Shown: positions 8,109 to 24,361 of the stretch, in pieces
How the letters are laid out: each line of letters opens with the position of its first letter
How positions within the stretch are numbered: position 1 is the first letter of the stretch
IMG/VR virus record: IMGVR_UViG_3300023087_000058
Span: 1-35,287 of that record
Length of the DNA stretch: 35,287 nucleotides
From: a virus
Strand: one strand, 5' to 3'
Position numbers and translations under genes: made by a program
The notes under the pieces: generated by a model
Told to the model about the DNA's origin: nothing
Databases searched by the model: none
What the model saw: only the letters and a program-made list of their open reading frames with translations

Positions 8109-11084
8109 ATGGCAACGGAACTTACAAGTACAACGTTTTTAAGTGATTATAATGACGACTATAGAGATAGCGATCATTATCACCGTATCCTTTTTAACAG
8201 TGGTAGAGCTCTTCAAGCAAGAGAATTAACTCAATCACAAACAATTATTCAAGAAGAATTAGGAAGACTTGCGCAATTCATTGTAAATGAAGGCGCTATC
8301 TTTAACAATAATGGTAATCTAGCTTCTGGACCAAATGCTTTTGCTTACACCTATGTAAAAGTAAATTCACTTCCAACAGGTTATGCTTCTCTTGTCAATA
8401 CTACAATTAATGATGGTGATTTATCTGCTACTGTAAAAGCTATTATCCCAGCAACTGGTGGAGACCCTGACACTATCATGGTCAAAATGACATCAGGCCA
8501 AGCTGGTGGTTCAACACCTGGAGCAGATACTGCACAAGTAAAACTATTTACTGCTGGTTCTACACTCTCAACAGACCTTGGTAATATTACCGTTCAATCA
8601 GTAAGTGATGCCGTAGGTCGTGGTTCTGTAGTTCAAGTTCCTGCGTTTGACACATATGCAGGTGGACACCTAGTATCAGTTGAAGCGCAAACGCTTGTAA
8701 TTGATAAGTACGATCCAAAGCCATCAACGGTTATTGGTTTTGTATTATCTGAACAAATCATCACAACCGCAGACAACATTGCTTTATATGATAATTCAGG
8801 TTCAACACCTAACCTTACATCTCCTGGTGCTGATCGTTTAAAGATTACATTGACTTTAACAAAAGAAGAAGATGTTCCAGCCGGAAAAACTTTCTATGAA
8901 GTTTACAAAATTGTAAATGGTATAGCCACACTAATTAAAACACCTGATAAAGTTTTGTCTAGACTTGGTGATATTGTAGCAAATAGAACACAATCAATTA
9001 CAGGTAACTTTATTGAGTATGGCGGCAGTGGTAAAGGCAACTTTGGCGTAGCAGTTTATAAAGACAGTGCTGATGATGATTATTTAACATTAAGAGTTGA
9101 TGGTGGTGTTGCTTTCATAAGTGGACACAGAATTGAAAGAGACGCTATACCTCCTCGTAGAATTCAAAAACCAAGATCAGAAGCAAATTTTATAACTACA
9201 GAAACGAACGTGTTTGGTAATGCTAGATATGGTAACTATTTCTTAGCAGATAGCGCTAAAGGTTTGCTAGGATATATGAATGACTATACTGAAGTTGTTC
9301 TATGGAATGCTCTAGGATCTTCTGGCGATAGTGTAGGTAATGCTAGAATTCGCCATATTGATGAATTTGATAATGATTATAGAATCCATGTATTTGACGT
9401 AACATTAAGTGATAGTTATGGTTTAAATGATGTTAGAAGTATTGGTATTGATTCTGTAAATACGGCTGATTTGAAAGCAGTAAGTGGCAATTTTGAATTG
9501 TTTGATAGAGCTGGTAATACTCTATTATTTGATATTGGTGATAGAGAAAGAATCAACGAAATTTCTAATATCACTACTGTTGTAGGTAAAATTTTTACTG
9601 ATACAACAAATGCAGATGGTGATGGAACGATTTCAACTGGAAATCCTTCTGTAACTTTTGCTGATGTTGAACAATGGATTGTGCAAGTAGACAGTAGTGG
9701 TGAACTTTTAACAGAAGTATCTGTTTCTTCTGGTGGTTCTGGATCCGATGCAGCAACAATCGCTAATCTTCCTGCAACTTCGGCTGTGACAGTGCTAGCA
9801 TATGAAAATGCTACTCTCACTCGTAAGACTAAAACTCTAAAACCATCTGCAAGCACATGGGAAGAAGAGTCTGGTTTATCACTAACAAATAATGAATTTA
9901 CTCTATCCAAAGTAGACATTTATAAATTTAATTCTGTTGTTGATGACGATACTGGACAAGATATTACATACAAATTCTTGTTTGATAATGGACAAAGAGA
10001 TAACTTCTATCAGGCTGGCTCTGGTAAACTAAAATCTGGTGCTACTGCGCCATCTGGTACAGTGACTGTGCAGTATCAATATTTTCAACATAGCACCCCA
10101 GGATCTGGATCAACTGGTTACTTTGGTGGTAAAGCATCTTATCCTGATGTTGAATATGATAAAGTTCCATATTACAGAGCATCAACTGGTGAAGTTTATA
10201 GTCTAAATGATGTTATTGATATGAGACCAATTCAGAATCCATCGACTGGAGAATACTCTGGTGGAATATCTAGAATTGAAAGATTGCCGAGGAATGGTGA
10301 TACACTTACAATTGGAACATTAAAATCTTGGAATTATAGGACTGATCTTGTTACCTTAACTCAAAATGGTACAGTTGGATATTATGTTGGAACTGGATCA
10401 AAAAGTGGAGGTGTAGATGATGTTCCAGTCGTAAGTCCAACTGACATGCCCCTCGCAAAAATAATTCTAAATCCATATACTATAGATGAATATGATCTTA
10501 CGATTAGTATGTATAATAATCGCGGATATAAAATGTCTGATATCCGTAAACTGGATCAACGGATTGGAAACGTAGAAAGAATTTCAGCTTTAACATTGAC
10601 AGAAATGTCTTTGTCCGCATTAGAAGTATTTGATCCTGAAACTGGAACGACACTAAGACAGACACAAGGCGTAACAGGCGATGGATTTAGAGCTTACAAT
10701 CAAACATACATAGATGATCCGGATAATAGATCTAGAATTATTAGACTTGGTGGGGAAGATAATAGGCTTGGCCCTCTTACTTATGTTAAAGCTGTTGGGT
10801 TAACATACGATTCAGATTTATCAACAGGTACTGTTCTAAAAGGTAATACAATTTGGCCAGTATATACTGAAGTAGTATCTGTAAATCAAGACAAAGCAAC
10901 AAGAATTGAAAACGTTAATCAGTTTGAGATTGCTCAAAGTATTGGTTCTGGTGTTTTGATTCCAGAGCAAGATTTGTGGACTGAACGTAAGAAAGTATCT
11001 AAATCTTTCAACCCAGCAAGTAAAACTTCACTGATTGACGAAGGTGCTATTTTGAGCACTATGGCCGATCCAGAACCTAAGTGA
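8109..11084 (+). CDS. Large virion structural protein with DUF4815 domain
   Basis: The protein has 991 residues. The N-terminus shows the DUF4815 hallmark of marine T4-like phages: YNDDYRDSDHYHRILFNSGR, ALQARELTQSQTIIQEELGR and NEGAIF (residues about 14-65). Beta-rich domains follow (VDGGVAFISGHRIERDAIPP at about 330), as do Gly/Ser-rich segments. A helical stretch near residues 800-830 (MYNNRGYKMSDIRKLDQRIG, NVERISALTLTEMSLSAL) looks like a trimeric coiled coil. The C-terminus is charged and ends without an obvious domain. In relatives the equivalent protein often continues into the domains found here in the next two ORFs. It probably forms part of the outer baseplate or proximal fibre; a biochemical role is not established. 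RBS is weak (AAGGG at 8098-8102). Confidence 0.82.
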   Translation: MATELTSTTFLSDYNDDYRDSDHYHRILFNSGRALQARELTQSQTIIQEELGRLAQFIVNEGAIFNNNGNLASGPNAFAYTYVKVNSLPTGYASLVNTTINDGDLSATVKAIIPATGGDPDTIMVKMTSGQAGGSTPGADTAQVKLFTAGSTLSTDLGNITVQSVSDAVGRGSVVQVPAFDTYAGGHLVSVEAQTLVIDKYDPKPSTVIGFVLSEQIITTADNIALYDNSGSTPNLTSPGADRLKITLTLTKEEDVPAGKTFYEVYKIVNGIATLIKTPDKVLSRLGDIVANRTQSITGNFIEYGGSGKGNFGVAVYKDSADDDYLTLRVDGGVAFISGHRIERDAIPPRRIQKPRSEANFITTETNVFGNARYGNYFLADSAKGLLGYMNDYTEVVLWNALGSSGDSVGNARIRHIDEFDNDYRIHVFDVTLSDSYGLNDVRSIGIDSVNTADLKAVSGNFELFDRAGNTLLFDIGDRERINEISNITTVVGKIFTDTTNADGDGTISTGNPSVTFADVEQWIVQVDSSGELLTEVSVSSGGSGSDAATIANLPATSAVTVLAYENATLTRKTKTLKPSASTWEEESGLSLTNNEFTLSKVDIYKFNSVVDDDTGQDITYKFLFDNGQRDNFYQAGSGKLKSGATAPSGTVTVQYQYFQHSTPGSGSTGYFGGKASYPDVEYDKVPYYRASTGEVYSLNDVIDMRPIQNPSTGEYSGGISRIERLPRNGDTLTIGTLKSWNYRTDLVTLTQNGTVGYYVGTGSKSGGVDDVPVVSPTDMPLAKIILNPYTIDEYDLTISMYNNRGYKMSDIRKLDQRIGNVERISALTLTEMSLSALEVFDPETGTTLRQTQGVTGDGFRAYNQTYIDDPDNRSRIIRLGGEDNRLGPLTYVKAVGLTYDSDLSTGTVLKGNTIWPVYTEVVSVNQDKATRIENVNQFEIAQSIGSGVLIPEQDLWTERKKVSKSFNPASKTSLIDEGAILSTMADPEPK

Positions 11085-11104: not shown

Positions 11105-11902
11105 ATGGCACTAGTAGCAGTAACCACTTATGAAGACGTAGAAGTAGAAATTTCGGGGTCATACACAGGGACGAAGACCGCCTCCGCCACTGGTCAGAGA
11201 ACTTCTGGTTATGAGCTTATTACTGTTCAAAGACCAAAAATTATTTACTTTGAATTTGAAGGTTTAAGACCTAATATTGCTCATTGGATTTTCTTTGATT
11301 CAAGAGATGTAACTGGATATTGTAATACTTCATATAGTCTAGATGATTATAATACTTCCAGTAAAAATTCATCTTTTAGAGAACCTGGTGAAAGATATTT
11401 AAATGAAACTGGCTTTCCTACAGAGTTAGGTGGTCCAACTGGTACTCCTTTATATTCTGATTCAGAAGGTAAGTTAAATGGTTTCTTTTATATCCAAAGT
11501 AATGAAACATTAAATTTCCCAACATCAGCAAATGGATTAAATTTTATTGCAATTGATATATCTACTATCAATAGAGATGATGCATTGTCTTATGCTGCTA
11601 CAAAATTCTATAGTGCTGGGCAATTTGAATATTGGTATAGCTACACATATTACTATACTTATACATACACGTATCACTATAGCTATACTACAATTGAGCA
11701 AAAAGAATACACGTATTACGAAGAAGTTCCTGATGTTGTACCTACATCCTATAGTGGTGGTGGAGATGGTGGTGGTGACTTCTCAGCGACGCCTTATTCT
11801 TCGTATTCGTACTATAGCCCTGATAAAGGTTACACAGTTGTAAATTCATATGATCCGGGTGATGCACCATCCGACGCCAGCTGGGGTGGCTGGTGGTGGT
11901 AG
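11105..11902 (+). CDS. Small structural protein with Tyr-rich, Gly-rich and Trp-ended tail
   Basis: The protein has 265 residues and no full-length match that I recognise. Residues 40-160 contain a motif seen inside giant tail proteins of marine T4-like phages: RPKIIYFEFEGLRPNIAHWI, FFDSRDVTGYC, then SEGKLNGFFYIQSNETLNFP. This reads as a beta-sandwich adaptor. Residues about 176-212 are extremely aromatic, alternating Tyr with Ser/Thr (YWYSYTYYYTYTYTYHYSYT). A Gly-rich stretch (SGGGDGGGDF) and a second Ser/Tyr stretch follow, and the protein ends GGWWW at the stop. The RBS AGAGGA is well placed at 11092-11097. Between the DUF4815 ORF and the jelly-roll ORF it probably forms one assembly with them. 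The tail could be an adhesive or a self-associating element; this is inference. Confidence 0.7.
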   Translation: MALVAVTTYEDVEVEISGSYTGTKTASATGQRTSGYELITVQRPKIIYFEFEGLRPNIAHWIFFDSRDVTGYCNTSYSLDDYNTSSKNSSFREPGERYLNETGFPTELGGPTGTPLYSDSEGKLNGFFYIQSNETLNFPTSANGLNFIAIDISTINRDDALSYAATKFYSAGQFEYWYSYTYYYTYTYTYHYSYTTIEQKEYTYYEEVPDVVPTSYSGGGDGGGDFSATPYSSYSYYSPDKGYTVVNSYDPGDAPSDASWGGWWW

Positions 11903-11931: not shown

Positions 11932-13602
11932 ATGGCAAGTTTATTACAACTAACTGAACAACAAAATCCAGCGGCTCAAACATTTATTGTTGACCAAGAT
12001 CAGGTATTAACTGGTGTTGGATTGTACTTCGCCAAAGCCGAAGGCAATTTTCCTATTACAATAGAATTAAGACCGACTGGTGAATCTGGTGCTCCTTCAG
12101 CAAAAAGATTTATTCCTGGAACTCGTGTAACTGCTTCAGCTTCGGCAGTGGCAGCGGTAGCTGATCCAAATACATTTAGTTCGGCTAGAGAATATAAGTT
12201 TACATTCCGCGAACCAGTCTTTATCCCTGGAAATAGCTTACTTGCTGTTTGTATATACACCGCAGCACCAGTTGGAAATTATCAATTCTATACAGCAGTA
12301 AATGGAGATCTTGTTTGGGGAAATACAACTAAGAGATATTCAGCTCCAACAGAAACGGCTGATGGTGGTTTTTATTCTTCATCAAATGGTACAACTTGGC
12401 AAGCAGATAACAATAAAGACTTAGCATTTAAAATTTATAAGGCACAATTTACAAAAAATTATGTGCACAGAGCAAAAATTATTGCAAATAATCCGCCAAT
12501 GAAAGCTCTTACTGAGATCACGGAGTATGATGATCCAGCAAGATACACATTTGATCCTTTGGTGTTCACCTCTGGCGCAGATTCAATTGGAGTAATTCAC
12601 CCAGCTCATGGTTTCCAAGTAGGAGATAAAGTTGTACTTGAGCCAACTGGTACAGACTTTGACTCTTCATCTACGGCGTTTGGTGTGTCAGGTTCTAGTA
12701 TTTTTGGAACGCGTACAATTACAAAAGTAGATCCATTTGGCTACAATATTGCTATTGATTCAGCTTCCGATTCTACTGGTAGAGCTGGAGGCTTAAATCT
12801 AATTGCATCACAACAAATCAACTTAGATCAATATAAATTAGATATTCCTTATATTTCGCCACCTGACACAATTATTAGAGCAAAAGGTAATTTCACAACC
12901 ACAAAAGGTTATGCAGGATCCGAAACAGCATATAATTCTCAAAACGGTGTAAAGATGAAACTTAATCGTTTAACGAGACTTCCTGCTCCTATGATCGTTG
13001 CTTCAAAAGAACAGGAAACATTAAGACTTTCTGGTAATAACTCTACAGAATTTGAAGTTCAATTGGATACAAATAATGTTAACGTTGCTCCTCACTTTAA
13101 TATTAATAGCTCAAGACTAAGTGCCGAACATTACTTTGTTGATTATCAAGATTCAGCAAGTACGACAAATAGAAACTTAATTACAACTATCCCATTTGTT
13201 CCAGAAACATCTCCTGATGGTGGTACTACAGCAAGTAAACATATTACTGTACCATATTATCTATTCTATGCTTCAACATCAATCGTTGTTCTAGTTGATG
13301 CAATTAAACCAGCTGGAGCAGATTTCTCGGTCTGGTATAGAACAAAATCAGCTGATGATTCTACAAAATTAAGAGATAAAAATTGGGTTGAGTTTAGTAA
13401 AAATACAAGAAATTCGCTTGCTGGTGGTGGACTTTATTCAGAAATTGGATCTAATGAAGATGTGTTAAGTATGAGAGAATATGAATTCTCTGTATTTAAT
13501 CTTCCAGCATTTAATGAATATCAAATTAAAATTACATTCAACACAACTCGTCAGACATATCCTCCGGCGTTTGAAAACCTTAGAACAATTGCAACTGTAT
13601 AA
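11932..13602 (+). CDS. Virion structural protein, jelly-roll-like adhesin/fibre-base family
   Basis: The protein has 556 residues. The N-terminal domain (NPAAQTFIVDQDQVLTGVGL, YFAKAEGNFPITIELRPTGE ... FTFREPVFIPGNSLLAVCIY ... TTWQADNNKDLAFKIYKAQF, residues about 10-180) is a beta-sandwich known as the C-terminal part of giant structural proteins in cyanophages and pelagiphages. Around residues 215-290 sits an HG-x-x-x-G beta module (VIHPAHGFQVGDKVVLEPTG) also present three times in the 981-residue protein near the window end. The rest is beta-rich and ends with FNEYQIKITFNTTRQTYPPA. RBS AAGGA at 11921-11925. The three ORFs from 8109 are probably subunits of one structure; start choice is clear. 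Confidence 0.78.
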   Translation: MASLLQLTEQQNPAAQTFIVDQDQVLTGVGLYFAKAEGNFPITIELRPTGESGAPSAKRFIPGTRVTASASAVAAVADPNTFSSAREYKFTFREPVFIPGNSLLAVCIYTAAPVGNYQFYTAVNGDLVWGNTTKRYSAPTETADGGFYSSSNGTTWQADNNKDLAFKIYKAQFTKNYVHRAKIIANNPPMKALTEITEYDDPARYTFDPLVFTSGADSIGVIHPAHGFQVGDKVVLEPTGTDFDSSSTAFGVSGSSIFGTRTITKVDPFGYNIAIDSASDSTGRAGGLNLIASQQINLDQYKLDIPYISPPDTIIRAKGNFTTTKGYAGSETAYNSQNGVKMKLNRLTRLPAPMIVASKEQETLRLSGNNSTEFEVQLDTNNVNVAPHFNINSSRLSAEHYFVDYQDSASTTNRNLITTIPFVPETSPDGGTTASKHITVPYYLFYASTSIVVLVDAIKPAGADFSVWYRTKSADDSTKLRDKNWVEFSKNTRNSLAGGGLYSEIGSNEDVLSMREYEFSVFNLPAFNEYQIKITFNTTRQTYPPAFENLRTIATV

Positions 13603-17183: not shown

Positions 17184-18782
17184 ATGGCCTTTAAGTTTGC
17201 GAATCAAGGAGATAAACCTCTATTTACGTCTAATGGTATTCCATTTATGTTTGGGACTGGAGATTTAACGACTCTTCCAGACAGTGATGGTGAAGCAACA
17301 TTCATCCAAGAAGATACAGACACTGATATTAATGGATCAAAATTTGGCAGGGCGATAGCTGTTGGATTTAATAGAATAGTTGTTGGAGCTCCAAAATATG
17401 ATACGCTTAATAGAAAAGGCGCTGTTTTCGTTTATAATTTAGATGGCGATTTTTTAACTAAGATAGAAGAATCGTTCGTTAGAGATGGTGGGCAGTTTGG
17501 TGATCAAGTAACACTTTTGAACGCTAGAAATAACATACCTCAGGGCGCTGGGAGCTTAGTTAATTTCTTTGATAAAAACCGACCAATTAGCGACTTTGAA
17601 GGTAACCAAAGTCAACAGCCCAACCACGGAGATCCAGTACTCTTAGTTTCAGCAACTAACGATGATGGGAGTAGTCTGAGCAATGGTGAGGGCTGGGCGT
17701 ACAAATATAAATTGAACGGCGAGCGGTATCAGAGTTCAGACTTCGATACTATGATTCCCCACGGGGCGGGATCAATAAGAAATTTCAGAAATGTAGGAGC
17801 ATACGATGGATACGTTGTTAATGGTTCTCACAGTGCTTTGCTGTTTCAAGGTGATACAGAACCTAGTTTCTACAATCGACTACAGATCCGTCAAATTAAT
17901 TTAAGAACTGGCTCATCTAGTAATGGAAGCGGAGGAACAAGCGATGTGACAGCCAACTTGTATCCCCCTGGAACCGGCGATGGTTTTTATGCCAATGATG
18001 CAGGTTATATGACAGAAGCAGAATTTGGCGGTGGTGGGGCAGGATATAATCCGAGTGATGAGGATACAGCGGATGCATATGGTTTTATAAAAGATCAATA
18101 TGGTTTTGATTTGGGCGGGCCTGAATGCGGATTAGCAATTGGGTATAATAAAGTATATGTCGGCGCGCCGAAAGCCACCGGTGGCGGAGCTGTATTTGTC
18201 TATGATTTAGATGGCAGGTATCAGACTATGATTAAGCCACAATCAACTAATCAGTTTACTCCTGTTGATTTTGGAACTCAAATAAAACTTCATGCTGGAA
18301 GAATTATCGTTTCCGCTCCAGGCACGAATGGGCCTAGTAAAACGGGTGCTACAAATAACGGAGCGTTTTATATTTTCGATTTGAATGGTAGAGAGCTTAA
18401 AGCAGTAAGGCCACCTCCTAGGGCCAACTCTAATTCGGCGTTTATAAGTGGAATGAAATTCGGCCAGCGTAACCAATTAGCAGCAGGGTGTGGGCGAATT
18501 GTAATCGCTGGATCAGATGGTGGTTCAGGAAATCCGGGAATTATTCATGTTTATAATATAGACGGTGAATATCTAACTACATATACTCGTCCGGTTGGGT
18601 TTAATAATGTTTCTGCTGGAGTAGCTGTTGCAATAGGATCTGGAAGATTAGTTATTGGTGATTATATAAAATCTGGCGATTTAGATGGTACTAGTGTTGA
18701 AATGGGAAGGATTTCAATTCATAAAACTCCAGACGTTATGACTGTATTTGAATATAGAGATAGAAAGTTAGGAAGGGCGTAA
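17184..18782 (+). CDS. FG-GAP-like beta-propeller virion protein 1 (putative receptor-binding)
   Basis: The protein has 532 residues. After a short N-terminal segment (FANQGDKPLFTSNGIPFMFG) comes a chain of blades with the FG-GAP/integrin-type pattern FG-x-x-(hydrophobic)-x-x-GNRIVVGAPx ... G-x-(V/I)-F-V-Y-(D/N)-L-D-G. Examples are SKFGRAIAVGFNRIVVGAPK with GAVFVYNLDGDFLTKI (residues about 50-95), LAIGYNKVYVGAPK with GGAVFVYDLDGRYQTM (about 313-350), FGTQIKLHAGRIIVSAPG with AFYIFDLNGRELKAV (about 360-410) and CGRIVIAGSDGG with IIHVYNIDGEYLTTY (about 430-475). About six blades are visible, plus one long insertion rich in Gly and Asn. FG-GAP propellers commonly bind ligands or surface polymers, so host recognition is plausible but not shown. 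It begins two bases after the S74 fibre stop and overlaps the next paralogue by one base (TAATG). Confidence 0.75.
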   Translation: MAFKFANQGDKPLFTSNGIPFMFGTGDLTTLPDSDGEATFIQEDTDTDINGSKFGRAIAVGFNRIVVGAPKYDTLNRKGAVFVYNLDGDFLTKIEESFVRDGGQFGDQVTLLNARNNIPQGAGSLVNFFDKNRPISDFEGNQSQQPNHGDPVLLVSATNDDGSSLSNGEGWAYKYKLNGERYQSSDFDTMIPHGAGSIRNFRNVGAYDGYVVNGSHSALLFQGDTEPSFYNRLQIRQINLRTGSSSNGSGGTSDVTANLYPPGTGDGFYANDAGYMTEAEFGGGGAGYNPSDEDTADAYGFIKDQYGFDLGGPECGLAIGYNKVYVGAPKATGGGAVFVYDLDGRYQTMIKPQSTNQFTPVDFGTQIKLHAGRIIVSAPGTNGPSKTGATNNGAFYIFDLNGRELKAVRPPPRANSNSAFISGMKFGQRNQLAAGCGRIVIAGSDGGSGNPGIIHVYNIDGEYLTTYTRPVGFNNVSAGVAVAIGSGRLVIGDYIKSGDLDGTSVEMGRISIHKTPDVMTVFEYRDRKLGRA

Positions 18783-20257
18783 TGTCATTTTTATTCGAAG
18801 GCGGCGAAAAAGCATTTGATAGTGATGGTCCAAGGTTTAGTTTTCTAGACTCTGATGGTGTTGAATTAGGCGAAAATATAGAGTCTAAATTTACTCTTAC
18901 CTTTGATTCCGATGCATTAACCAATACAGTGAATGGACCTGTTCTTCTAGGAGATACCTTTGGTGGCAGCATAGCTTATAGTAACGGACTATTTTTTGTC
19001 GCCGCCTCAAGCTCAGATGCAAACCCCGGCGCTAAGAGCGAATCTGGGAAGATCTTTACTTTCGAGCCTAGTGGTAGGCAATTAGGATCCGTGCCAATTG
19101 GTGAAGGGAATACTATAAACACTCGAGACGATGATAATATAGGAGACAGATCATCGTTGGCTGCTGGACAAGGATTCATTGCTTTCGGTCAAGATAATAT
19201 CATCGCGAATAGACCTACCGGGCGTTATGAGACAGTTTTTGCTGGTCCTTTGCATCATATAGAAGGTGACTTTAGATATACAGGAACCACCAGCGCCGAA
19301 TTTCGGAACAAAGCAGATATTGTAATAGGCCCTGAACATTATGATTTTGATGGCGCCAATTACCAAATAACCCCAGTGCGTGTGGACACCTATAGTAACA
19401 GAAGTGACGCGTCATTGTTGGACGGAGATAGAGAAAACGAGTTCGGTAGAAGAATTGCGATTGACCGAAAAAGAATAGCTATACTTGAACTTGGTGACAC
19501 TAATGGCGAAGGTGATCCAGATAATAATATAGTCTTTGGTAGAATCTGGATTGTTAATAATATGCTTCCTATTAAAAATACTACCTACATTACACCTGAG
19601 ATTATAGATACTGGTACTCTTGAACAATATACCACTGAATTAGTTCGTAATGGTACTAGTTTTAACATTCCGGCCTTTGCAATGGGCGATGGAGTGGTTA
19701 TATTAGTTTCATACTGGCGACAGTTCACTATACCTAACACTTACACGAGTTACATACACATTTTTTGTGTGTACACTGGCGAAAAACTCGTGAGAAAACA
19801 GATTAGCAGCGGCCTAACCAGCACGCCGTTCATTAGATCTGTGATAATCCATCATGGAAAAATATATATGGCGGGGACTTTTAAGGTTGATGGTTCATTT
19901 TATAATTTAATAAAGCTCGACATTAATGGAAACTTTGAAAAAGGAGTGAGCTCTGCAGATCTAGGAACACCTGGTGATATGTGTATAGCAGGAGATAGAA
20001 TTTGGGTTGCGAAAAGCGGCGCTTCTGAAGTGTTGTCAGAATATGATTTTGATTTAAATTTAATTAGCCGATCAGCAGTGGAATTCCCTGGTGTAAATAG
20101 GTACCCAACTGGACCAAACCAAATGGCCGGTGGATCTGGAGTTATTATGCAAGCAGCATCCGTTAATAATTCAGATAGCGCTAATGAGAACACACTTTTA
20201 TATAAATACGATGAAACTTATGGCGATTATATAGACGACGTATTACAGGGGTTTTAA
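18782..20257 (+). CDS. FG-GAP-like beta-propeller virion protein 2 (putative receptor-binding)
   Basis: The protein has 491 residues and is the second of three tandem paralogues. The N-terminus is MSFLFEGGEKAFDSDGPRFS. Blade motifs are weaker than in the first copy but in the same order: FGGSIAYSNGLFFVAASSSD with GKIFTFEPSGRQLG (residues about 60-105), LAAGQGFIAFGQDNI (about 122-136), FGRRIAIDRKRIAILELGDT with GRIWIVNNM (about 220-262), MGDGVVILVSY with YIHIFCVYTGEKLV (about 301-338), IIHHGKIYMAGTFKVDGSFY with LIKLDINGNFEKG (about 356-392) and MCIAGDRIWVAKSG. The divergence between copies, far beyond the shared blade scaffold, suggests old duplication and different ligands. No signal peptide or membrane segment. 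The stop abuts the next ATG directly. Confidence 0.7.
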   Translation: MSFLFEGGEKAFDSDGPRFSFLDSDGVELGENIESKFTLTFDSDALTNTVNGPVLLGDTFGGSIAYSNGLFFVAASSSDANPGAKSESGKIFTFEPSGRQLGSVPIGEGNTINTRDDDNIGDRSSLAAGQGFIAFGQDNIIANRPTGRYETVFAGPLHHIEGDFRYTGTTSAEFRNKADIVIGPEHYDFDGANYQITPVRVDTYSNRSDASLLDGDRENEFGRRIAIDRKRIAILELGDTNGEGDPDNNIVFGRIWIVNNMLPIKNTTYITPEIIDTGTLEQYTTELVRNGTSFNIPAFAMGDGVVILVSYWRQFTIPNTYTSYIHIFCVYTGEKLVRKQISSGLTSTPFIRSVIIHHGKIYMAGTFKVDGSFYNLIKLDINGNFEKGVSSADLGTPGDMCIAGDRIWVAKSGASEVLSEYDFDLNLISRSAVEFPGVNRYPTGPNQMAGGSGVIMQAASVNNSDSANENTLLYKYDETYGDYIDDVLQGF

Positions 20258-21805
20258 ATGGCATTTATCCAACAAAAAGATCTAGGATATGATTCTGGAG
20301 AAAGCGATCATTTTATAGAATCATATACTATGCCTAGTACTGGTAATGTCCAAAATAAAAATAATTTTACTGTCCGACCAAACGGTAATGTTGTAATTAA
20401 TTCTGGAGAAAAACCGAATACAGAATATTACGACGGGGCCCCTGCTAGAGTTCCTCTTACTGATTGGTGGTCGCAGGTTAATTCAGTGATGAATTATGAA
20501 CAAAAACAGATAGAAATATATAATGGTTTCTTATATATTGCAGGACCTAATGACCAGAATGCGGGTTCTGTAGAGTATGGACACATTCAAGTTTTTAACC
20601 TATTGATGAATGATGGCTTCGAAACTAAATCATCCGCTGCTGTACAAAATCGCCGGCGCATGGGGGGATCATCTACTGGTATATCATTAAGGTCAGCCAC
20701 TGGGCAGTCTTCTTCCTTAAATTTTGGCCAAAAATTTGCTATAGCCCATAATAGATTATTTGTTACGTGTGATGGTTTAAAATCAGTGGCATGTATAGAC
20801 TTAGCAAACCGGGTGTTCTCGTCAGGGGCGGAGGATAACGCTTATTTATGGGTAACGCGCTATTTTTTAAGAGAGTATACTTCTTCGGGGTATCCAAGCG
20901 CAGTCACTTGTGACATTGATGATCTTGCCGCAGGAGATGGCAGAGTTGTAGTTTCGGGACTAAACTGGGGAGATCGAATTGTAAGAAGTACTGGCATTGG
21001 CGCGTTTGGAATTTTAAGTTTAGATGGATATTTATTACGGAAAGTTGAAAATAGGCCAAGGGATGAAAGTGGTACAGGTTTTGATATGCCAATTCCTGGA
21101 TTAAGAGATTATTCTAGAATGGGTAGTAAAGTTAAAGTTGGCTGCGGGCGGATCGTTGTTAACTTAGAGATAGATGATGACTATAGCGATACAACTAACA
21201 ACGCTAATCCTAAAGCTTACATTTTTGATTTAAATGGAAATTATAAATCATATATAAATTCGTACACACCATGGGGGCCTATCGAGCACGATGTTGACGC
21301 TGATATCGCAATTGGACATGGCATGATAGCTCTCAGTTTCCCAGCCACTAAAAAAACTAGAGATAAAGATTTATTAGATCCAGATCCATATAACTCTGGT
21401 TTAGTTCAATTATATGATATGAATGGTAACTATTTAAGAACTATTTCTCCTCCTGATGAAAGTCAAAATGGTAACAACAATGCTTCTTTTGGCAGTCGAA
21501 TCCTCATAGAAGACAACAGGCTTTTTGTAGCTGATTCGCAATGGGGCGATAATGGCGGTGGGTATGGTAACGCGCTTGGTAAAATCTACATATATGATTT
21601 ATACACTGGAGATCTTTTAACTAGTTTTGGTGGAGCCGGCAACGACGACTCTTACTTTGGAAGTAGAATTGCAGTCGGTGATGGAATTTGGGCACAAAAT
21701 GGGAATTCTACAAGCTATACCGATGTTAATATAGATTTCAACTATTTTGATTATGATGCAATTGTTGGAACTGACGCTGTCACAGATCTTTTAAACAAAT
21801 ATTAA
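20258..21805 (+). CDS. FG-GAP-like beta-propeller virion protein 3 (putative receptor-binding)
   Basis: The protein has 515 residues and is the last of the three tandem propeller genes. The start directly follows the previous stop. The N-terminal 70 residues differ from the other two (QQKDLGYDSGESDHFIESYT) and could be the attachment segment. Blades visible: IEIYNGFLYIAGPND with GHIQVFNLL (about 85-120), FGQKFAIAHNRLFVTCDG (about 152-170), LAAGDGRVVVSGLNWGD with FGILSLDGYLLRKV, MGSKVKVGCGRIVVNLEID with AYIFDLNGNYKSYI, IAIGHGMIALSFPA with GLVQLYDMNGNYLRTI, FGSRILIEDNRLFVADSQWG with KIYIYDLYTGDLLTSF, and FGSRIAVGDGIWAQNG near the end. The seventh, incomplete element suggests a closed seven-blade ring with velcro closure; this is inference. 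A late promoter follows. Confidence 0.72.
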   Translation: MAFIQQKDLGYDSGESDHFIESYTMPSTGNVQNKNNFTVRPNGNVVINSGEKPNTEYYDGAPARVPLTDWWSQVNSVMNYEQKQIEIYNGFLYIAGPNDQNAGSVEYGHIQVFNLLMNDGFETKSSAAVQNRRRMGGSSTGISLRSATGQSSSLNFGQKFAIAHNRLFVTCDGLKSVACIDLANRVFSSGAEDNAYLWVTRYFLREYTSSGYPSAVTCDIDDLAAGDGRVVVSGLNWGDRIVRSTGIGAFGILSLDGYLLRKVENRPRDESGTGFDMPIPGLRDYSRMGSKVKVGCGRIVVNLEIDDDYSDTTNNANPKAYIFDLNGNYKSYINSYTPWGPIEHDVDADIAIGHGMIALSFPATKKTRDKDLLDPDPYNSGLVQLYDMNGNYLRTISPPDESQNGNNNASFGSRILIEDNRLFVADSQWGDNGGGYGNALGKIYIYDLYTGDLLTSFGGAGNDDSYFGSRIAVGDGIWAQNGNSTSYTDVNIDFNYFDYDAIVGTDAVTDLLNKY

Positions 21806-21850: not shown

Positions 21851-24361
21851 ATGGCAACTCCACTCAAGATAAAAGACGCCGGTGGTAATATTCAGGAGTT
21901 TACAACTTCTGAAGAAAACTATATTGCATATCAGATTGGAAAACATTTAGCAGCCTCAGGACCGAATGGTACTGGTAGTATTACAACTAATGCGTCCCAC
22001 ACTAATATTGGTTCTTTTGTAGATACATTTTTTAATGAACCAGTAGGAACGCATCCATCAACATCCATTACATCAGGTAGCACAACTACAAATGTATATC
22101 AAAGTCAAGGCACTGCGCCTGAAACAGATTCAGATGTTTATTCTCCTTTAATGTGGGTAGATTCAGCAGGATCTTCTGAAACTGGTTTTAAAATGATGCC
22201 AGATGTAGATCTAAATGAAGCAGTTGACCGTTATCTTGCAACAATATTTACAAATGATTATCCTGGAGTATTTAGATTAGCTTCTTCATCTCCAGGTGTA
22301 GATTATTCAGTTTGGCTATCATCAGTCTTTACAGATACAAGAACTGATGGTACGTCTATTGGTTATAACATTTACCGCAGAGATAATTATACAGCTCCAA
22401 CTACTGTGAGACCAATGTTTGTTGAAGATAGTGCTGGTGGTTCTGGTATAAAACTCAGAGCGATGACTGATCGCCAAATTCAATATTCATTTGGTCAAAG
22501 AGCAAAGACTCGTATTGGTGCTTCTAAAATTGGTACATATCAACTAAGAACTTCTGCCCAAGGCGCTCCAACAGACCCTGGAACTTGGGTATCAAAAGGT
22601 TCTGCCACTGATACAAAACAAACTACAAGTCAACAAATATTTACTCGAGATAGTACATCTACGTTCCAACAAAATTATACACGTGGATATACTAATGTCT
22701 ATACTTTACCATATGTAAAAGCCTATACAAATACTTATACTGGTACTTTTGATTCGACACCATATACAACGACATATTCTGGTCCTTTATATGCTAGAGC
22801 ATATGCAAATCAATATTTAGGTAATTATGTAAATAATTATGTTCCAAATTATATTAGAATATACACCGGTAACTATGTTGGTAATTATGAAAGACAATTT
22901 ACAGGTCAATATGCTGTAGAATATATTGGTAACTATACTCAAGACTATACAACAAATTATACTCTTATAGGTTTTAGCGCAAATTATACAACAAGGTACG
23001 ATACAAACTATACAGGAACTTATACTAGAGGGTTTGTAAATAATTATGCTGGTGATGCTTTTGTAATTAATAGACCTGTTAACTATACTGGTGCGATTTC
23101 ATATACTTCTAATTTTGCTGGGACGTATGACCGTGTTTATACTCGATTAGTAAACTATACAAGAAATCTTGTTTATACTGGCCAGTACACCGTAACCAAT
23201 TTCTATAGTAGACTTTATACTCCTAACTATATTAGGCTTGTATATTATCTAGGGCCGTCTAGATATTATGCTAGAGCCTATACAGGCCTCTCCGCCACTC
23301 CTCAACAGTATCTTGGTGCAGGAGGAACAACATATCTTGGAAATTACACAGCAAATGTCGCAAATAATACCTACTTTGCAGGATACTACGGTCGCAATTA
23401 TACAAGAAATGTTCCTTCTGCTTACTACGTAAGATCAAGTGGACCAGTTAGATATTATCAAGGATCCTCTTCGGGATCGTCATCTAGTTATTTAGGTGGG
23501 GGCTCACAATATTATCTAAGATATTACTCTGGCCCAACATATCTTGGCCCATCCTTGTCATATTATGGCAGGAATTACGGAAACTTAAATACTTATACAA
23601 GATTAGGGGCCGCGTATTACGCCAGAAACTATACAGTGTCTCAATATCTACGTAACACCGGTTACATAGGATTTATTAATCCAACAACTTATCAGCAAGA
23701 TAGTTTTTATGCCAGACAATTTATACTCACAAATATTTACTCAAGAAATTTAATTTATACCACGAGATATTCGAGGTTGTACACAAGCAACTATGTTCTT
23801 GATCCTCAATATAATATTGTATACCAAGGGAATTATGTACCAAACTATATTCGAAATTACGTTCGTAATTTCCAATCTACAGATTCTGTTCCTCAAGGTC
23901 CTCCCGGCGTATCATACGTAGCAGGATATAGTAATACCTATCTTAGAGTATATACTCTAGATTATACTGGTAATTATCAAACGAACTATATATCTGGAAG
24001 TTATATAACAAATTATGTGGCTCCTACGTATACTGGAAATTTTGCATCCCCTCTTTACGCTACAGATTATCTTGGAGATTTTACTGGACCTGCATTTGCT
24101 GCAGACTACACCAGCATAAACTATACAAAAGATTACACTATAGATTATGCTTCAACATATAATACTCAGTATGTTGGAACATATACAAGAGCTTTCAATT
24201 TTCCTTATTCCACTGATTACATTGCAGATTATGAAAACGTATATAATGCTGAATATTTAACGGATTATATTGGAAACTTTGTAGGTAATTTTGAAGGGGA
24301 AACGATTGATGCCACCAGTGGAACTGAGGAAACTTATACTTTATATGTAAGAATTGCATAA
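21851..24361 (+). CDS. Giant aromatic tetrapeptide-repeat virion protein (Tyr-rich)
   Basis: The protein has 836 residues and begins after an intergenic late promoter and an AAGGA ribosome site at 21841-21845. Residues 1-250 form a normal-looking head: a helical start (TSEENYIAYQIGKHLAASGP), a beta region, and FGQRAKTRIGASKIGTYQLR at about 215. From about residue 273 to 813 the protein is a degenerate four-residue repeat with Tyr or Phe at one position and mostly Thr/Val/Ile, Gly/Arg and Asn/Gln/Thr at the others, for example NYVGNYERQFTGQYAVEYIG. The centre (about 465-600) is less regular and Gly/Ser-rich (QGSSSGSSSSYLGGGSQYYL). The spacing suggests an aromatic ladder along a fibre or solenoid. 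Many N-Y-T triplets occur. The last 20 residues (TSGTEETYTLYVRIA) form a short cap. I know no experimentally defined function for this protein. Confidence 0.85.
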   Translation: MATPLKIKDAGGNIQEFTTSEENYIAYQIGKHLAASGPNGTGSITTNASHTNIGSFVDTFFNEPVGTHPSTSITSGSTTTNVYQSQGTAPETDSDVYSPLMWVDSAGSSETGFKMMPDVDLNEAVDRYLATIFTNDYPGVFRLASSSPGVDYSVWLSSVFTDTRTDGTSIGYNIYRRDNYTAPTTVRPMFVEDSAGGSGIKLRAMTDRQIQYSFGQRAKTRIGASKIGTYQLRTSAQGAPTDPGTWVSKGSATDTKQTTSQQIFTRDSTSTFQQNYTRGYTNVYTLPYVKAYTNTYTGTFDSTPYTTTYSGPLYARAYANQYLGNYVNNYVPNYIRIYTGNYVGNYERQFTGQYAVEYIGNYTQDYTTNYTLIGFSANYTTRYDTNYTGTYTRGFVNNYAGDAFVINRPVNYTGAISYTSNFAGTYDRVYTRLVNYTRNLVYTGQYTVTNFYSRLYTPNYIRLVYYLGPSRYYARAYTGLSATPQQYLGAGGTTYLGNYTANVANNTYFAGYYGRNYTRNVPSAYYVRSSGPVRYYQGSSSGSSSSYLGGGSQYYLRYYSGPTYLGPSLSYYGRNYGNLNTYTRLGAAYYARNYTVSQYLRNTGYIGFINPTTYQQDSFYARQFILTNIYSRNLIYTTRYSRLYTSNYVLDPQYNIVYQGNYVPNYIRNYVRNFQSTDSVPQGPPGVSYVAGYSNTYLRVYTLDYTGNYQTNYISGSYITNYVAPTYTGNFASPLYATDYLGDFTGPAFAADYTSINYTKDYTIDYASTYNTQYVGTYTRAFNFPYSTDYIADYENVYNAEYLTDYIGNFVGNFEGETIDATSGTEETYTLYVRIA
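22660..24295 (+). repeat. Degenerate [YF]-x-x-x protein repeat region
   Basis: The coding DNA shows a loose 12-base periodicity (TAT or TAC, less often TTT, recurring every four codons). Synonymous and non-synonymous drift between units is strong, so this is an old protein-level repeat and not a recent DNA tandem array. Confidence 0.8.

Follow-up and report, generated by a model that had tools for sequence, protein, structure and literature searches.

The stretch of DNA analysed here (the window; 35,287 nucleotides of IMG/VR virus record IMGVR_UViG_3300023087_000058) contains a short open reading frame, ORF B, which is the subject of this study and which stands between two longer reading frames, ORF A and ORF C. 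The genes and the parts of ORF B are as follows.

8109 to 11084, plus strand: ORF A, 991 aa, predicted N-terminal part of a VrlC/DUF4815 baseplate protein, here a separate gene.
11105 to 11902, plus strand: ORF B, 265 aa, predicted middle domain of that protein, again encoded separately.
11111 to 11218, plus strand: long N-terminal beta strand of ORF B, residues 3-38 (AF2 secondary structure).
11219 to 11620, plus strand: folded conserved core of ORF B, residues 39-172 (AF2; invariant columns among 28 homologues).
11621 to 11725, plus strand: Tyr-rich segment of ORF B, residues 173-207, modelled as one long beta strand (DSSP E173-207; alignments).
11726 to 11899, plus strand: low-complexity end of ORF B, residues 208-265 (GGGDGGGDF ... 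GGWWW), the variable C-terminal slot (AF2; relatives' tails).
11932 to 13602, plus strand: ORF C, 556 aa, predicted C-terminal part of the VrlC protein, a separate gene.

ORF B is preceded by a Shine-Dalgarno-like AGAGGAAA and ORF C by AAGGAAA. An earlier note on this DNA had drawn attention to Tyr alternation, GGGDGGGDF and a terminal GGWWW in ORF B, and all three are present: YSYTYYYTYTYTYHYSYT, in which Tyr alternates with Ser/Thr, occupies residues 178-195 (DNA 11636-11689), GGGDGGGDF residues 218-226, and GGWWW residues 261-265 at the C-terminal end. Residues 176-212 contain 14 Tyr in 37 positions; in the remaining ORFs of the window the share of Tyr is 4.1% (binomial P about 1e-10 for a stretch picked post hoc). 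The Tyr residues are spaced at a distance of 2 (period 2, ratio 1.94), like residues that share a face of a beta strand. A second IMG/VR contig from this species, L001, encodes an identical protein, so these letters are not an assembly slip. The DNA carries a 24-base repeat at 11636-11692 (2.4 copies, 80% match) and a GTG triplet run at 11754-11777, and local duplication has therefore contributed to the Tyr/Gly stretch. A GGT-run pattern sought in the window's own record gave no hit.

ORF A matched PF16075 (DUF4815) in Pfam with an E-value of 9.8e-41. ORF B alone gave no match in Pfam, in NCBIfam or in a sequence search of the PDB but did match the phrog_358 profile (E 6.5e-8). ORFs A, B and C matched this profile of 2056 columns in succession, at columns 577-1113, 1182-1381 and 1772-2054 respectively. 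The same order was found in the single chain of phage C48C1, where A matched residues 3-953, B residues 1000-1136 (E 1e-12) and C residues 1154-1660, with only 17 residues between the match to the B core and the match to C. A, B and C form one ORF of 1612-2534 aa in every one of the seven named phages examined (C48C1, Mosig, HTVC008M, Melnitz-3, pf16, P-SSM7 and Menlow), and in some of the seven this unsplit ORF is annotated as VrlC. The DUF4815 protein of Staphylococcus phage phi812 (ORF65, PDB 9euf) likewise has successive stretches that match A, the B core and C, though as a single chain of 1152 aa and with B matched by structure only. ORF A matched residues 105-256 of this chain (phmmer) and ORF C residues 792-946 by sequence (E 3.5e-8), and the predicted B core aligned with residues 681-772 of 9euf_0 over 86 residues at 2.2 A with a VIA-align Z of 6.8, in the range below 8 for which the tool warns of common arrangements. 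This was the top row for the B model, the next scoring 5.3; a Foldseek search of the model against the PDB gave no match at E 0.001.

Because A, B and C are collinear with the single-chain relatives and with the phi812 chain, ORF B is, as judged by homology, the putative middle domain of a baseplate protein cut into three genes and no stand-alone fibre. The claim of the earlier note that it is a virion protein is thereby backed by homology to a piece of a baseplate protein. That ORF B could be a tail fibre or receptor-binding protein in its own right, without kinship to its neighbours, might be argued from its own gene with its own ribosome-binding site and from the lack of a Pfam or NCBIfam match, but its collinearity with single-chain VrlC by PHROG, BLAST and structure makes this highly improbable. 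VrlC is a single polypeptide and the window has three ORFs with stops and Shine-Dalgarno-like motifs in between; since the ORFs are separate, ORF B has been filed as a piece of the VrlC protein and not as VrlC itself.

The VrlC/VriC proteins of the Kyanoviridae and Ackermannviridae (phrog_358, DUF4815) show the same A-B-C order as the window. Their genes, as in the window, adjoin gp8-like baseplate wedge genes and several precede a small gene resembling the 72-aa ORF of the window. The window differs from them in having three genes, a Tyr-rich strand and a C-terminal tail where they have one ORF. A review (PMC11721090) states that VriC may form prongs below the Ackermannviridae baseplate and likens it to the baseplate proteins of A511 and phi812.

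Two alignment-based scans returned 66 and 76 loci. A match to B was present at 122 loci, giving 66 distinct ORFs, of which 44 were whole and not joined to A or C. A Shine-Dalgarno-like motif preceded the start of B in 38 of these 44 and the start of C in 33. When more than 60% of A and more than 80% of C were required for a row in the trees and the layout count, 118 loci qualified and 69 distinct relatives were kept, Menlow (L009) dropping out. The layout was A|B|C in 38 of the 69, AB|C in 4 and a single ORF in 27. With the split identical in L001 and present in 38 of 69 distinct rows, an assembly or frameshift artefact was ruled out. Brief listings of the open-access literature, covering titles and the openings of abstracts, contained no report of Hint domains in, or of a split of, VrlC/DUF4815 proteins.

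The earlier note had also heard in ORF B an echo of a second Tyr-rich protein of this phage, encoded at 21851-24361 (836 aa). This protein, without a PHROG or Pfam match, has tetrapeptide-like Tyr repeats (NYTG) with a period of 4 (ratio 2.94). The echo holds for composition but not for pattern, and kinship of the two proteins was rejected on the period of 2 against 4. Relatives of the second protein were sought in 42 chosen records, which were searched whole but are themselves fragments, so that absences are soft. They were found in 13 of the 42, namely 7 of 32 with the A|B|C layout, 2 of 4 with AB|C and 4 of 6 unsplit; the unsplit phage C48C1 has one too, for which a single ORF of about 3347 aa is annotated. 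The second protein thus does not track the tail of ORF B and the proposed link between the two was not borne out.

The AF2 model of ORF B, built on 28 sequences, has block pLDDT values mostly of 79-95 between residues 41 and 170, middling values of 50-77 in the Tyr-rich strand (173-207) and values of 32-46 from residue 211, with less than 50 at 213-237 and 246-265. Strand 3-38, the other long one, would be the likely partner of the Tyr strand. A model of the B-C junction of an unsplit relative, weak with a mean pLDDT of 48, has strands 43-71 and 195-218 flanking the core. Of the 44 split homologues, many read like GQYENWYEY...SExYxYxExxYY just after the core, and others have a shorter version there. 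In the unsplit proteins the position of the Tyr stretch is taken by a segment running into C, for example AIFTAKGTLDTRQETIRSTRLTVTATRRW, which is soon followed by HDPLAQSF. The Tyr stretch thus lines up with the B-to-C connecting strand of the unsplit homologues, and would represent a conserved aromatic strand carried to an extreme.

Counts of aromatic residues were made after excluding B ORFs cut by contig ends (such as L040, L050, L052, L061, L074, L076 and L079) from the tail and strand counts. Over the 32 residues following the core, the 44 homologues have 76 pairs of aromatics at a distance of 2 against 57.3 after shuffling (P 0.0015, kinship ignored), and ORF B of the window alone gives P 0.011 against shuffles. 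The window has 14 Tyr among these 32 residues, followed by L041 with 10 and L016 with 9, an extreme value helped by the 24-base duplication.

Beyond the strand, the plain tails of the relatives are of low complexity. The Tyr fraction of the tail is 0.23 in the window and 0.03-0.16 in the relatives' plain tails, a comparison set that included four module-bearing tails (L081, L102, L104 and L106). Three distinct tails (L054, L068 and L069) end about 31 residues past the core. Aromatic residues are frequent at the very end, however the rest of the tail is made up: F, W or Y is found among the last three residues of 20 of 27 non-redundant plain tails against 8.2 expected from the same tails, and among the last five of 22 of 27 against 12.2 expected, with kinship ignored in both cases. 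The B of L056, frameshifted in its tail, was excluded from this count. In that genome (L056:7992-8750) B ends early and is followed by a 191-codon frame with a VLC-type domain (described below), apparently owing to a frameshift in the tail.

The earlier note found the Tyr/Gly/Trp tail reminiscent of adhesive or phase-separating sequence of low complexity; on this view it would have been selected to bind surfaces such as host polysaccharide. Low complexity and modelled disorder are confined to residues 208-265, most of which are disordered in the model; the Tyr stretch is modelled as a strand over residues 173-207. The extreme Tyr content, the GGGD and WWW runs, the aromatic ends frequent in relatives and the location on a protein that may form the prongs of the baseplate (PMC11721090) would all suit an adhesive. 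However, the Tyr part occupies a conserved strand position and is not disordered, the tails of homologues are far less Tyr-rich, those of L054, L068 and L069 stop about 31 residues past the core, and there is no association with the other Tyr-rich protein. A single adhesive segment selected for binding is thus quite unlikely.

The region after the strand varies greatly in length, letters and domains across the relatives of B. One to three Hint domains occupy it in relatives with B separate (L073, L076 and L077) and in relatives with A and B fused and C apart (L108, L110-L111 and L122-L124), and partial Hint domains are found in L038 and L101. The slot HMMs match their own source sequences by construction; the checks against Pfam and intein_Cterm are the independent ones. 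Among the 10 selected proteins given to each check, several Hint families exceeded the Pfam cut-offs in L108 and L122 and remained under them in L073, L077, L038 and L101, while intein_Cterm was above its cut-off in L073, L077 and L122. Cys1, a block B [TS]xxH and, at the C-terminal end, HN with Lys after it were recognised in L073, L076 (with the same segment in L077), L108 (two copies) and L110. In L123 and L124 copies one and two show them as well, whereas HN is missing from the third copy in each of L122-L124. A-type BIL domains have been described as having a conserved His-Asn end, as cleaving without ligation and as occurring in hypervariable regions (PMC7765530). The full-length Hint domains of the slot would fit this description in their Cys1, [TS]xxH, HN then Lys and variable surroundings, and because HN is followed by Lys, with no nucleophile, they are predicted to fit cleavage without ligation. 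They occur in the relatives only and are absent from ORF B of the window; the slot Hint model gave no match to the window in six frames. Hint is not special to the slot of B, since four virus contigs (L147, L148, L149 and L150), none of which matches A, B or C over the stretch examined, encode Hint domains in other proteins.

Other relatives have further domains at the C-terminus of B. A CFI-box-like domain ends the protein in L011, L049, L051, L053 and L074 and follows the Hint domain in L073 and L077. In L011 and L051 this CCFI... domain covers positions 1-65 and 1-64 of the 69 of the CFI-box-CTERM profile NF041770, with scores of 12.4 and 12.0 bits that lie far under the curated cut-off of 40; the relatives' domain is also longer, at about 109 aa against 69, and is not found in the window. 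Two more end domains, named VLC-type and CVIAT-type in this analysis, were found in L040, L041, L047 and L064, and behind Hint in L108 (VLC-type), and in L046, L061 and L063 (CVIAT-type). Relatives of the VLC-type domain occur in HMO-2011 and a cyanophage. The CFI-like domain recurs with 82-87% identity in the podophages CRP-345 and CRP-13. A pattern search of bacterial genomes for it gave 25 hits, none of which was confirmed. The domain is common to T4-like phages (B of L011, L051, L073 and L077) and HMO-2011-like phages (CRP-13, L143:2704-6330), and stands at the protein end behind a low-complexity linker, which in CRP-13 is poly-Ser.

The order of events was examined with two 'quick' trees, one of 69 rows, which comes with a warning of long branches, and one of 36 rows with a mixture model. 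The unsplit rows lie on one side of a branch in both trees (99* and 98*). Among the rows with B and C split, the Hint-bearing AB|C branch comes first in both trees, L073 (A|B-Hint-CFI|C) next and then the rest, and the fewest Hint changes on the 36-row tree number 3. With the root placed among the unsplit forms, this reads as a gain of Hint at the B/C border with loss of the B-C link, then the cut between A and B, then loss of Hint in most lines; the Hint-first order depends on the quick trees and on that root. Tail-only forms (L043, L045 and L100) nest among module-bearing rows, and slot gains and losses have therefore recurred.

The tail of the window might be a nearly neutral relic, in which after the cut a Hint or other domain was lost and the sequence drifted by microsatellite-like duplication. 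The 24-base repeat in 2.4 copies with the triplet run, the differing length and letters of tails among relatives and the presence of Hint in the deepest BC-split lineages point this way. Drift alone, however, would keep neither the C-terminal aromatics in 20 of 27 tails against 8.2 expected nor the aromatic pattern of the strand, and a nearly neutral origin is regarded as rather doubtful.

A split VrlC middle domain with an outgoing Tyr strand and a variable slot is probably the best explanation as a whole. A gene of the VrlC/DUF4815 type would have been cut at both ends of its middle domain so that A, B and C are made separately, presumably to assemble without covalent links. A long beta stalk of two strands would leave the domain, the Tyr stretch being its outgoing strand, which in unsplit relatives continues into C; the alternating Tyr residues would form one face of this strand. 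The cut would have turned the free end of B into a variable C-terminal slot, holding Hint domains with A-type BIL motifs in deep-branching relatives, and exchangeable C-terminal domains in others; what is left in the window would be no more than a flexible tail of Gly, Ser, Asp and Tyr, rich in Trp at its end. This tail most likely extends, exposed and flexible, from a baseplate prong and may dock on the virion or touch the host surface with its aromatic end; the function of the tail is the weakest step of the explanation.

A bolder form of the split-domain explanation would make the prong protein a carrier with a C-terminal part that can be exchanged and releases itself. Like polymorphic secreted proteins, it would be built in modules: the A and B core, one to three autocleaving Hint domains, and an interchangeable domain that is CFI-like, VLC-type or CVIAT-type. 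Cleavage by Hint would then have preceded the cutting of the gene, and the tail of the window would be a late form without a domain that kept its aromatic docking end. This seems unlikely at present; were it true, Hint cleavage at the B/C border would have made a break in the chain tolerable, with the gene cut afterwards.

If the split-domain explanation is right, an orphan low-complexity protein becomes a named piece of a widespread and poorly understood baseplate protein. The relatives would show a natural series that begins with a single chain, passes through intein-like domains placed where the break later comes, and ends in three genes, and it becomes possible to test whether Hint domains prepare a gene for fracture. 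What holds most interest is this series of Hint forms at the break, which is found in the relatives and not in the window. The comparison also marks a slot in phage baseplates in which C-terminal domains appear to be exchanged, even with unrelated podophages.

Elsewhere in the window, a gp5-like baseplate hub protein is encoded at positions 20-2143, and roughly its last 110 residues are matched by peptidase and endolysin PHROGs. Three consecutive proteins of 490-530 aa are encoded at 17184-21805, the first of which has an FG-GAP match and is similar to the third; they are probable duplicated fibre-like proteins.
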